Shown: one piece after another, positions 3,512 through 62,866 of the stretch | How the letters are laid out: each line of letters starts with the position of its first letter | Position numbering within the stretch: the first letter of the stretch is position 1 | Assembly (NCBI RefSeq): GCF_014108865.1 | Contig: NZ_CP053928.1 | Location: 4,650,001-4,714,000 of the forward strand | Length of the DNA: 64,000 bases | Direction of reading: 5' to 3' | Source of the DNA: Nocardioides sp. WS12 | GTDB taxonomy: Bacteria > Actinomycetota > Actinomycetes > Propionibacteriales > Nocardioidaceae | Made by a program: the position numbers and the translations under genes | The notes under the pieces: generated by a model | What the model was told of the DNA's origin: nothing | The model's input: the letters and a program-made list of their open reading frames with translations, nothing else | The model's database searches: none

Positions 3512-3616
3512 AGTTCGTCGAGTAGTGGCGAGCGCCAGGCCGCGCAAGTTCGTCGAGTAGCGGCGAGCGCCAGGCCGCGCAAGTTCGTCGAGTAGCGGGG
3601 AGCGCCAGCGAGCCGC
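3512..3616. repeat. Three head-to-tail 35-bp repeats
   Basis: Copies start at 3512, 3547 and 3582, each opening with AGTTCGTCGAGTAG followed by a GGCGAGCGCCAG-like part. Copies 1 and 2 differ at one base; copy 3 diverges in its last third (GCGAGCCGCG instead of GCCGCGC). There are no unique spacers between copies, so this is not a CRISPR array. Confidence 0.85.
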
Positions 3617-50890: not shown

Positions 50891-51180
50891 GGGAGCGCCC
50901 CTTCCGTCGCGCGGGACACCGATGTCCCGCGATGGGGGCATCATGCACCGGCCTGCGCCTTTACCTGCGAAGGCGCGGCGTAAGCGCGACACGCGCTGTC
51001 GGCTGCTCAGGGACGTCGAGCGACGGAGCGAAGAGAGCGACGCAGGAGCGACCGGAGTGGAGGAATCGACGTACCTGAGCGTCGACTGTCTTGCCGCCAG
51101 GCCAACTCAGCCCATGCCAAGACAGCTGCGGCGCGGCAGCGTGTCGGAGCGGAGCGACGACATCGCTCGCGCCATCCAAC
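50891..51180. other. 290-bp intergenic region with a structured dispersed element
   Basis: Between the GlsB-like gene and the transglycosylase-like gene, both on the minus strand. Its right half carries element A of a two-copy dispersed repeat, with an 8-bp inverted repeat CTGTCTTG/CAAGACAG (51087-51094 and 51119-51126). The left half is GAGCG/GACG-rich without a clear feature. Confidence 0.5.
51087..51142 (+). repeat. Dispersed two-block intergenic element, copy A
   Basis: Block 1 at 51087-51113 starts CTGTCTTGCCGCCAGGCCAA and ends CTCAGCC; block 2 at 51129-51142 is GCGGCGCGGCAGCG. Both blocks recur in the same order, one mismatch in block 1, on the minus strand at 61897-61954. Block spacing is 15 nt here and 17 there. 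Confidence 0.8.
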
Positions 51181-51834
51181 TCAGTACCAGTTGTGGCTCT
51201 CGGAGTGCGCCCAGGCGCCGCAGGGGCTGCCGTAGCGGTTCTGGATGTAGCCGAGGCCCCAGCGGATCTGGGTGGCCGGGTTGGTCGCCCAGTCGGCTCC
51301 GGCCGAGGCCATCTTGGAGCCGGGGAGCGACTGCGGGATGCCGTAGGCGCTCGACGAGGGGTTGTCGGCGTTCCAGCGCCAGCCGGACTCGCGGGTCCAC
51401 AGCGAGTCGAGGCAACCGAACTGGTCGGAGGAGAATCCGAACTCACCCAGGAGCGCGCGGGCGATGTCTCGGGGGTCCGAATCGGAGAGCTTGCGCTCGT
51501 CGGTCAGCGCAGCGGGGCCCGTCTCGTCCAGGCCTGCAGCCTTGGCCGGGTCGGCCTCGGGGCGGCGGTCGTCGCGGGAGACCACTTCACGGCGCTCGGT
51601 CGCGACGGTGACGTCGGCGGTCCGGGCAGCGGTGAGGGCGTCGAGGTCAGCGCTCGCAGCGGGCGGAGCAGCGTCCTGGCCGAGGACACCGGCGGCCACG
51701 GACACGCCCGTGACAGCCACGGCAACCGACGACAGGACGACCACGTTGCGGGCAGCCTTGCGAGGCGCCTGGGCAAGGTGAGCGTGCTTAGGTGCTCCAC
51801 GGTGCTTCGGTGAAGGGTTCGCGTGCTTCGACAA
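51181..51834 (-). CDS. Secreted transglycosylase-like protein (aggregation-promoting factor type C-terminus)
   Basis: 217 residues. A basic N-terminus precedes a hydrophobic segment (VVVLSSVAVAVTGVSVAAGV), a signal peptide or anchor. The C-terminal 95 residues (DSLWTRESGWRWNADNPSSSAYGIPQSLPGSKM) follow the SLT/aggregation-promoting-factor pattern with a likely catalytic Glu in TRESGW. Expected to act on peptidoglycan outside the cell. The start is a TTG at 51834, the only start codon in frame after an upstream stop apart from CTG codons; no good Shine-Dalgarno. Confidence 0.75.
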   Translation of the reverse strand: MSKHANPSPKHRGAPKHAHLAQAPRKAARNVVVLSSVAVAVTGVSVAAGVLGQDAAPPAASADLDALTAARTADVTVATERREVVSRDDRRPEADPAKAAGLDETGPAALTDERKLSDSDPRDIARALLGEFGFSSDQFGCLDSLWTRESGWRWNADNPSSSAYGIPQSLPGSKMASAGADWATNPATQIRWGLGYIQNRYGSPCGAWAHSESHNWY

Positions 51835-60927: not shown

Positions 60928-61218
60928 GTGGAGCTCCGTGATGACCAGCCGACGCAGCACGAGATCGGCAAGCGCACCTACCTGATCGCTCCTGTCGAGC
61001 CGCTCGACGTTGACGGAGTCCGGACCGTCCAGGTCGGCACCGGCATCTTCCTGCTGGCGTTCCTCGGACTGCTGCCGTTCTGGGGCCGCCTCGAGGAAGA
61101 GGGCCAGACCTGGCTGCTGTGGATGTGCCTGACGGGCGTCGGCCTCGGCCTCCTCGGCACGGAGTACTGCAAGCGCCGCCGCGGGATCCGCGCCGAGCGC
61201 GCCGCCGATGGCGAGTGA
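60928..61218 (+). CDS. DUF2530 membrane protein
   Basis: 96 residues. Starts at GTG. A soluble N-terminus with LIAPVEPLDVDGVRTVQVG is followed by two helices (GIFLLAFLGLLPFWG and WLLWMCLTGVGLGLLG) and a basic tail KRRRGIRAERAADGE, the pattern of actinobacterial DUF2530. Function unknown. Overlaps the methyltransferase gene by 11 bp and is divergent from marR. Confidence 0.8.
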   Translation: MELRDDQPTQHEIGKRTYLIAPVEPLDVDGVRTVQVGTGIFLLAFLGLLPFWGRLEEEGQTWLLWMCLTGVGLGLLGTEYCKRRRGIRAERAADGE

Positions 61219-61864
61219 CGCCGCCCCGCTTCCGCCGACCCGTTGGGCTCTCGGCGGAGCGAAGAACAGCGGCTACGGCGAGCGCTTCGCCGAACTGATC
61301 AACCAGGGCAAGGACGTCGACGGCGAGGCCCGCCTGGCCGACACCCTCGTCGACCGGGGCGCCCGGATCCTCGACGCGGGCTCCGGCATGGGCCGGGTCG
61401 CGGGCTACCTGCAGGCCCACGGCCATCGCGTGGTCGCAGCCGAGCCCGACCCGGTGCTCGTCGAGCAGTCCCGGCTGACCTATCCCGCGCTGGACGTGGT
61501 GCCCCTCGAGATCCTCGACCTCACCCGCGAGGCCGTGGCCGCAGCGGGTGTGGCGGACGGGTTCGACCTCATCGTGTGCGTCGGGAACGTGTTGACGTTC
61601 GTCGCGGACGGCACCGAGGTGGCTGTCCTGACCCGTCTGCGCGAGCTCCTCGCACCGACCGGACGAATCCTCGCGGGCTTCCACCTCCGGGGCGGTCCGA
61701 GCTCGGCCCGGCCCTACTCCCCCGACGAGTTCATCGCCGACGCGACGTCAGCGGGACTCCGGATCGACCACCGGTTCGGTGGCTACGACCTGCGACCGGT
61801 CGACGACAACTACGCCGTCTGGGTGCTCAGTCTGGCGCGAGACGCGTCTCCGGCGCAGAACTAG
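61208..61864 (+). CDS. Class I SAM-dependent methyltransferase
   Basis: 218 residues. SAM site ILDAGSGMGRVAGYL (about 53-67), then VVAAEPDP (motif II acidic) and LIVCVGNVL; no NPPY, so not a base N-methylase of that class. Target unknown. It starts within the DUF2530 gene, so they are co-translated. Confidence 0.82.
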   Translation: MASDAAPLPPTRWALGGAKNSGYGERFAELINQGKDVDGEARLADTLVDRGARILDAGSGMGRVAGYLQAHGHRVVAAEPDPVLVEQSRLTYPALDVVPLEILDLTREAVAAAGVADGFDLIVCVGNVLTFVADGTEVAVLTRLRELLAPTGRILAGFHLRGGPSSARPYSPDEFIADATSAGLRIDHRFGGYDLRPVDDNYAVWVLSLARDASPAQN

Positions 61865-61896
61865 GGGCAGCGAGCTGCCGTCGGCGCCTCCCGCCG

Positions 61897-61954
61897 CGCT
61901 GCCGCGCCGCGGTCGTCCCGCGTAGATGGCTGGGTTGGCCTGGCGGCAAGACAG
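61897..61954 (-). repeat. Dispersed two-block intergenic element, copy B
   Basis: On the minus strand block 1 (61928-61954) starts CTGTCTTGCCGCCAGGCCAA and ends CCCAGCC, block 2 (61897-61910) is GCGGCGCGGCAGCG, with 17 nt between. Copy A is at 51087-51142 on the plus strand. It lies between convergent genes. Confidence 0.8.
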
Positions 61955-61967
61955 CTCGTCCACGTCA

Positions 61968-61989
61968 GGCGCGAGACGCGTATCGCGCC
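61968..61989. terminator. Hairpin at the end of the convergent DUF3027 and methyltransferase genes
   Basis: GGCGCGA and TCGCGCC form a 7-bp stem around an 8-nt loop, which is itself nearly palindromic (ACGCGT). It touches the DUF3027 stop and could stop transcription from both sides. Confidence 0.5.
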
Positions 61990-62765
61990 TAGAACACTTC
62001 CAGGTCGTCGGTGCCGATGGTGTCGATGACCGGCGGGGCCGGGGGCTGCGACTGCTGGCGCTTGCTGAGGCGGACCTCGGAGTGCGCACCGCAACCGTGC
62101 TGGAAGGCGACCACACGAGCGTCGTCGTTGGCGTCGCCGTTGGCGCAGACACCGAACATCTCCGACAGCGGGCCGGCGAGGCGGACCAGGAAGCCACAGG
62201 AGTAGCACTGGTGCGGGGCCGACTTGGCGATCGGCGCGTCCGGGCCGGGTTCGCCGTCGTACCAGCGCTCGGCGGCGATGTCGCGACCCTCCGGGGAGAG
62301 CACGCGGACCCGGCCGAGGCCGAGGTCCTTGGCGACATCGCGGATCTGGGTCTTCTCGTCGGTGTCGAGCGCGTCGTCGCCGAAGGAGTACGTCGGCACG
62401 AGGCGCGGGTCCTCGTCGGAGACGGGCAGCAGGTCACCGGGCGACAGGTCGCCGGGCTGGAGGCGGTCGCGGTAGGGCACCCAGGCGGGAGCGATGATCG
62501 CTTCGGCGCCGGGAAGCAGCACGACCTCGACGACGGTCACCTTGCGCTGGCGGGACGCCCGCGTCAGGGTCACCGCCCACTGCCAGCCGTGGTAGCCCTT
62601 GCGGTTGCACCCGAACAGGTGGGTGACGACCCGCAATCCGTCGACCTGGAGGCCGAGGTGGTCACCCACGTCGGCAGCGTCGACCTCGTTGAGCAGCGCG
62701 GTGCGCGCTTCATCAACGGCGTCGGCCGCGACGGCGTCGGTCAACTTGCGCTCGAGTGTGGACAC
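61989..62765 (-). CDS. DUF3027 protein
   Basis: 258 residues. Central WQWAVTLTRASRQRKVTVVEVVLLPG and the Cys-rich HQCYSCGFLVRLAGPLSEMFGVCAN, then FQHGCGAHSEVRLSKR, are typical of actinobacterial DUF3027 proteins and suggest a zinc site. Function unknown. The GTG at 62765 is favoured because GATGCT stands 7 nt upstream; ATG at 62777 is possible. Confidence 0.85.
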   Translation of the reverse strand: MSTLERKLTDAVAADAVDEARTALLNEVDAADVGDHLGLQVDGLRVVTHLFGCNRKGYHGWQWAVTLTRASRQRKVTVVEVVLLPGAEAIIAPAWVPYRDRLQPGDLSPGDLLPVSDEDPRLVPTYSFGDDALDTDEKTQIRDVAKDLGLGRVRVLSPEGRDIAAERWYDGEPGPDAPIAKSAPHQCYSCGFLVRLAGPLSEMFGVCANGDANDDARVVAFQHGCGAHSEVRLSKRQQSQPPAPPVIDTIGTDDLEVF

Positions 62766-62866
62766 GGGGCACAGCATCCCTCATTCGGGCGATGCTCGTC
62801 ACGTCGGGGGACCGTGCCGGGACGTCGGGGGGTGTCGCTTCGACACCAGCAGGCAAGATGGACGTC

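Follow-up and report, generated by a model that had tools for sequence, protein, structure and literature searches.

REP-like repeats (REP, repetitive extragenic palindrome) shape gene ends in many bacteria, and in the well-studied cases their movement is tied to RAYT (REP-associated tyrosine transposase) enzymes. Other short bacterial repeats, including MITEs, ERIC, BOX and MIRU, are non-coding, dispersed and clade-specific, and occur as modular length variants. Integron attC sites lie directly behind genes and are conserved in structure rather than in sequence. Compensatory changes have been reported for REPINs (PMC3116915), and the termini of GTAG REPs often provide flanking ORFs with a stop codon (PMC3733652). 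As cited in PMC12306157, E. coli REPs located within 15 nt of a stop codon were reported to stall ribosomes, and about half of the E. coli REPs were reported to be near enough for this effect. Neither the family analyzed here nor any REP from Nocardioides was described in the open-access literature searched.

The window analyzed here is a stretch of 64,000 nucleotides (positions 4,650,001-4,714,000 of a single 5.17-Mb contig), in which two copies of a dispersed two-block element had been predicted. With a probability of roughly 0.6, these blocks belong to a non-autonomous, REP-like repeat that forms hairpins and is spreading in a clade of what is probably Nocardioides. The existence of the repeat family itself is firm.

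The repeat unit and its two copies in the window

Block 1, searched with up to three mismatches, gave eight matches in the 5.17-Mb genome and none for a reversed control, and the two-block pattern with a gap of 15-35 nt gave seven exact matches against none; the similarity of the two blocks, proposed to be non-random, was thereby borne out. The pattern was present in eight of 147 same-genus genomes, and its control had no match in any listed genome. In the genome harboring the window, a covariance model (R1) built from 16 full copies gave at least 35 matches with E below 1e-4, all copy counts per genome being lower bounds, as a limited number of candidates was scored in each. A lack of further copies or of any conserved spacing had been named as the outcome to be expected if the original prediction were wrong; the search for it returned instead at least 35 copies whose layout is conserved, and together with strong covariation they make the element a dispersed and structured one.

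Alignment of the copies with their flanks showed that conservation extends well beyond block 2, to a 3' end reading CGCTCGCGC. Since many R1 matches cover the right-hand half only, the core of the repeat was assigned to the right-hand hairpin. This is an imperfect hairpin of 65-76 nt, composed in order of an outer stem, a two-base GC bulge, an AGCGCG/CGCGCT stem, a purine-rich internal loop (GRGA / GRAGA), an inner stem and a cap hairpin, GGCAGCTTGCTGCC. Both predicted blocks are real, but neither is a natural unit. The core hairpin has block 2 as its first (5') arm, and the partner arm lies 3' of the interval reported at first. About one in three copies of this genome also carry block 1, which is a 5' module. 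This module and a GA-rich domain are optional 5' extensions of the core.

Almost all copies are intergenic and most are dispersed singly, direct tandem arrays (about 80 bp) being present in several genomes, with the same arrays in the same-genus genome G145. Several variants of the layout were also observed. A direct tandem pair of the core hairpin is located at G000:C1:4714348-4714507, 0.35 kb to the right of the window end, and each unit of this pair carries a copy of the sequence around the neighboring stop codon (TGTCACAG). Three tandem units of the block 1 module on its own, with a period of about 47 bp, lie upstream of a single core hairpin at L006 (G000:C1, about 384909-385130). G145 and G099 also contain elongated elements of about 147 nt that have an additional, large inner hairpin, and a third repeat, GGTTTCGAGGCTCGG...CACCTCAACCACCGG, is interleaved with the elements at L082, L097 and L100 (G145).

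Copy A, on the plus strand, carries the 27-bp block at 51086-51112, one base to the left of the start first given for it, and the 14-bp block (GCGGCGCGGCAGCG) at 51128-51141, with a spacing of 15 nt. In copy B, identified on the minus strand by the block search, the two blocks are found at 61954-61928 and 61910-61897, with a spacing of 17 nt. Block 1 differs by one mismatch between the copies and is preceded in both by CCTGA, as had been described.

The full inserted segment of copy A (50986-51172, plus strand) has about 185 nt, compared with 13 nt at this site in the closest relative, G093. It consists of a GA-rich 5' domain (GACGTCGAGCGACGGAGCG..GGAGCGACCGGAG..TCGACGT; 51008-51080, plus strand), the block 1 module (CTGTCTTGCCGCCAGGCCAACTCAGCC) and a short form of the right-hand hairpin without inner stems (51129-51175, plus strand), which was identified by folding and by a match to a second model, R2 (E 7e-4). 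Model R1 matches copy A at 51083-51173 (E 3.5e-9), and block 2 forms the 5' arm of the hairpin, pairing with about 51160-51172. The segment has a second copy in the same genome, at G000:C1:2137389-2137570, where 180 nt recur with 89% identity. Sequence related to the GA-rich domain was found in this second copy, and at the same gene end in three relatives (G081, G134 and G086); single-strand folding of this domain was no better than that of shuffled sequences. The right-hand hairpin stops a few nucleotides short of the stop codon (51181-51183) of a minus-strand gene (51181-51834) with an aggregation-promoting-factor type C-terminal domain (NF052397, E 1.3e-38), a region conserved in 146 of the 147 genomes of the genus.

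Copy B (61834-61957, minus strand; R1, 100.9 bits, E 1.7e-16) combines the 5' module with a full core hairpin (61832-61909, minus strand; R2, 74.5 bits, E 3.1e-14) that includes the outer stem, the purine-rich internal loop, the inner stem and a CAGCTCGCTG cap; its 5' arm is block 2. It is flanked on its 5' side by a DUF3027 gene (61989-62777, minus strand; PF11228, E 6.8e-80) and is inserted at the 3' end of a gene with a methyltransferase domain (61208-61864, plus strand; Pfam PF08242/PF13649). Both copies had been placed outside genes, which holds for copy A but only in part for copy B, as its 3' end (61834-61864) overlaps the 3'-terminal part of the methyltransferase ORF. The closest relative does not have the element at this site, where just a short palindrome, GGCGTGAGACGCGTCTCGCGCC, separates the two genes, and the additional segment of the window genome amounts to about 130 nt. 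The stop codon of the methyltransferase gene, TGA in G093, reads CGA here, and the reading frame continues for eight codons within the element, to a TAG at 61864. Its last eight codons and its stop codon are therefore supplied by copy B.

Conserved loops and covarying stems

The pairing of the core was evaluated on 116 core matches, in an alignment fitted to the model. Standard pairs occupied 95% of the cells, and 16 of the 23 pairs displayed double changes. The number of double-change cells was 262, against 83.5 in shuffles (none of 500 reached the observed value), a result that may partly reflect inherited subfamilies and that was the same on 38 sequences. Controls in which the pairing was slid reached at most nine pairs and 48 double-change cells. 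The stems are free in sequence; the loops, the bulge and the internal loop are near-invariant. The 8-bp stem proposed in the original prediction (CTGTCTTG/CAAGACAG) can be drawn in most copies of the module, with 80% of cells paired, but showed no covariation beyond that of shuffles, 64 of 500 of which reached its score.

Single-sequence folding is a weak guide in DNA of such GC content. Folding of single strands was modestly better than for shuffles (mean z -1.31) and recovered 69% of the consensus pairs in the MFE structure, and the core of copy B alone did not fold better than its shuffles. On the element strand, 30 wobble pairs were counted against 14 A-C mismatches, about half of the wobbles coming from one pair; this excess is a weak hint that the element strand is the one that folds.

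The manner in which the outer stem varies deserves particular attention. Among near-identical copies (loop distance of at most 2), it differs by 41 double changes versus nine single ones, and pairs 4-89 and 5-88 each show about 50 double changes with no single-sided intermediate. Copies L118 and L122 are identical over their whole interior, and their outer arms read CGCG/CGCG and GTCG/CGAC, respectively. Point mutation followed by compensation does not easily explain this exchange of complementary outer stems, which palindrome correction, or a copying step rewriting both arms, would produce. Covariation could accordingly stem from the mutation process itself, template switching in quasi-palindromes rewriting one arm from the other in the absence of any selection on structure. 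This is a possibility to be taken seriously, if on balance an unlikely one: pure palindrome correction would not keep the loops, the bulge and the internal loop both near-invariant and unpaired, and the inner stem contains single as well as double changes. Such an explanation is limited to the stems and does not conflict with a mobile repeat. That the outer stem is acquired from the target site was an idea raised by a single site (L122 in G035); the other sites did not suggest it, and it was rejected.

Distribution, gene-end placement and empty sites

The core model was positive in 19 of 147 same-genus genomes, six of which hold from 22 to at least 32 core copies each. The genomes rich in the element include G000, G056, G086, G093 and G134. 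In a ranking by the identity of a neighboring conserved gene, the closest relatives of the window genome account for nearly all carriers, with four non-carriers (G034, G139, G042 and G002) among these close relatives. A sample of 197 genomes of the order yielded a single match outside the genus, and a marginal one. The repeat is thus clade-specific. Near-identical copies are carried by Nocardioides sp. J54, the only genome for which a contig scan with a 17-mer core of block 1 was informative, the other matches being mostly unrelated chance matches. A distant genome of the same genus (G138), far from the main clade, showed 22 weaker core-model matches (best E 1.7e-8) that probably represent a diverged subfamily.

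Genes around the copies were called with a simple codon-position script and ARAGORN, which missed some genes. Among 96 sites, which include orthologous ones shared among relatives and are in this respect not independent, 62 had an opposing gene (or tRNA) with its 3' end at most 10 nt from the 3' side of the element; the 5' side of the element was that near a 3' gene end at 11 sites only, and each side adjoined a gene start once. In 60 of 76 gaps with an opposing right-hand gene, the copy was located at most 9 nt from the end of this gene. Random placement within these gaps would give 17.5 such cases, and none of 5000 simulations reached the observed count. Contact was confined to the right in 52 cases versus two to the left. 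The stop codons at contacted ends were 38 TGA, 20 TAG and three TAA; as all three kinds are used, the target as such is not the sequence of a particular stop codon. At 14 of the remaining 34 sites, the element is directly followed by four or more consecutive A and then by a strong hairpin, an arrangement corresponding to an intrinsic terminator that ends in a T-run on the other strand. The common denominator of placement is that an opposing transcription unit has its 3' end there.

The genes adjoined are ordinary ones, such as rplS, ahcY, rpoA, an acyl-CoA dehydrogenase and an M23 peptidase. The short and strict distance to the stop codon, the strong structural constraint and the presence of the housekeeping genes rplS, ahcY and rpoA among carriers would also be expected of a selected 3'-UTR signal, whose hairpin ends transcription, shields the 3' end of the mRNA or influences ribosomes during termination; the proximity to stop codons reported for about half of the E. 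coli REPs (cited in PMC12306157) points in the same direction. We nevertheless consider such a signal, as opposed to a mobile parasite, to be unlikely. About 14 copies lie beyond a same-side intrinsic terminator and would be outside the mature mRNA, rplS and ahcY have their own downstream hairpin, with the element between this hairpin and the stop codon, and the flank following the element's hairpin is not T-rich. Close relatives, moreover, are without the element at most compared sites. The copies beyond terminators and the relatives without the element both weaken a reading of the placement as selected.

Eleven further sites of the window genome were compared with G093 and G035. At eight of them the element was absent from both relatives, and at one it was shared with G035 and absent from G093; G093 had a different core at another and a partial copy at the last, gains and losses not being separable at every compared site. 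The cleanest case was L130, where four bases separate two convergent stop codons in G035 and where the element stands exactly between them in the window genome. The family is inferred to spread since sites filled in this genome are often empty in close relatives. At orthologous gene ends of different species, cores sometimes diverge more than the flanking genes, suggesting that the same gene ends were reused or that copies were replaced. Gene-end placement and empty sites both point to a mobile REP-like repeat.

Class membership and comparison with known systems

With at least 35 copies, a 23-pair hairpin and a nearly always intergenic location, the element is a REP in the broad sense, and its size, palindromic structure, copy number and contact with gene ends suggest by analogy that it may work like one. 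These same features (size class, palindromic and extragenic nature, clustering near gene ends) would fit a REP family of the classical kind, mobilized by a RAYT that escaped detection or has lately disappeared, and the compensatory changes reported for REPINs (PMC3116915) could be cited in its favor. This origin is nonetheless very unlikely. No Y1 transposase (PF01797) was detected in any of 46 genomes, including the window genome and all 19 carriers, with positive control genomes. Outside the outer stem, no invariant tag of the GTAG/CGTC type was found in 109 distinct aligned copies, the 3' side showing a weak C-C/A-A preference only, and arrays consist of direct tandems rather than of the inverted doublets of RAYT-associated REPs and REPINs.

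A free-standing small RNA, or a trans-acting structured RNA expressed from each copy, is even less probable. The original prediction of a structured RNA or protein-bound repeat was right as to a structured dispersed repeat, and nothing found supported a free-standing small RNA. The RNA-like covariation and the wobble excess would agree with such an RNA, but the copies are antisense to, and tight against, the end of another gene, and mobile repeats typically have such a copy number and turnover. When six element loci were compared with Rfam 15, no match at E of at most 1 was obtained except for tRNA and two chance-level matches. A scan of the window against Rfam gave nothing at gathering score for the element; elsewhere in the window, a TPP riboswitch (RF00059, 38417-38526, minus strand) scored 59.1 bits, above its gathering score.

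Sites resembling attC, used as single-stranded hairpins by a tyrosine recombinase, would account for sequence-free stems, extrahelical bases and bulges, fixed orientation and a position directly after genes, but are the least probable alternative, as copies are mostly single and dispersed, the consensus has by inspection no RYYYAAC/GTTRRRY core boxes, and no integron integrase (TIGR02249) was above the family cut-off in 15 genomes, sub-threshold matches being generic tyrosine recombinases that were matched in all control genomes too.

Two further candidates were rejected. A MITE of a DDE transposon was discarded on the basis of target sites and termini. The apparent excess of target-site duplications came from tandem arrays and disappeared upon their removal, 165 of 1000 permutations then reaching the observed value, and inspection revealed no terminal repeats of the transposon type. 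An intrinsic terminator was discarded as the flank after the hairpin (left flank, in the sense of the gene), where a T-run would be expected, is not T-rich (34% A+T); separate terminators adjoin several copies. Other repeats were encountered as well. Three tandem 35-bp units with CGCTACTCGACGAAC are located at 3513-3597 of the window (minus strand), and a short stretch with a similar motif (GTCTCGATACGCC...GGCTACTCGACGACC) was found beside another element, in the terminator region of L135. As this stretch matches dozens of places in G093 and G035, a second and more abundant dispersed repeat family exists.

For the mobile REP-like repeat, we infer a mobilizing mechanism in which a trans-acting enzyme would recognize a folded single strand (ssDNA or RNA) mainly by its loops and insert it, in antisense orientation, at the 3' end of a transcription unit. 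After insertion, the element would form a strong hairpin in the 3' UTR of the gene or immediately behind the terminator of this gene, where it may influence termination, translation or the decay of the mRNA in the manner of REPs in E. coli. A bolder version, which we regard as rather improbable, is a structure-defined mobile element of which the loops alone are recognized, which inserts antisense at transcription-unit 3' ends with no RAYT, and whose copying replaces both arms of the outer stem by a complementary pair. If it were true, each insertion could gain a new stem around an identical interior. The family has spread after recent species splits, with no Y1 transposase in the genomes examined; its preference for gene 3' ends is unusually strict and one-sided, and its stems change as complementary units. 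The many sites filled in one genome and empty in another offer a clean system in which the copying of hairpin repeats and their effects on adjoining genes can be studied.

Placement and the capture of an ORF end both have precedents, since ribosome stalling by E. coli REPs and stop codons provided by GTAG REPs have been reported (the former as cited in PMC12306157, the latter in PMC3733652). The element resembles the RAYT-associated REPs and REPINs of Pseudomonas and E. coli (PMC3116915, PMC3733652) as a short, extragenic, hairpin-forming palindrome in tens of copies, with compensatory stem changes, clusters and contacts with gene ends. It differs from them in the lack of a detected RAYT in its carriers and of a fixed tetranucleotide tag, in its direct rather than inverted arrays, in its conserved internal loops and in its fixed antisense orientation at the gene 3' end. 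The E. coli REPs near stop codons (study cited in PMC12306157) belong to the same class of stop-codon distance, whereas sequence and host are unrelated; placement of the element is, in contrast to theirs, tied to one element end and one orientation, and extends beyond terminators and next to tRNAs. Like MITEs, ERIC, BOX and MIRU, the element is non-coding, dispersed, modular in length and clade-specific, but neither transposon terminal inverted repeats nor target-site duplications were detected. It differs from integron attC sites in the absence of an integron integrase, of attC core boxes and of cassette arrays, and shares with them a structure that is kept where sequence is not and a location directly behind genes.
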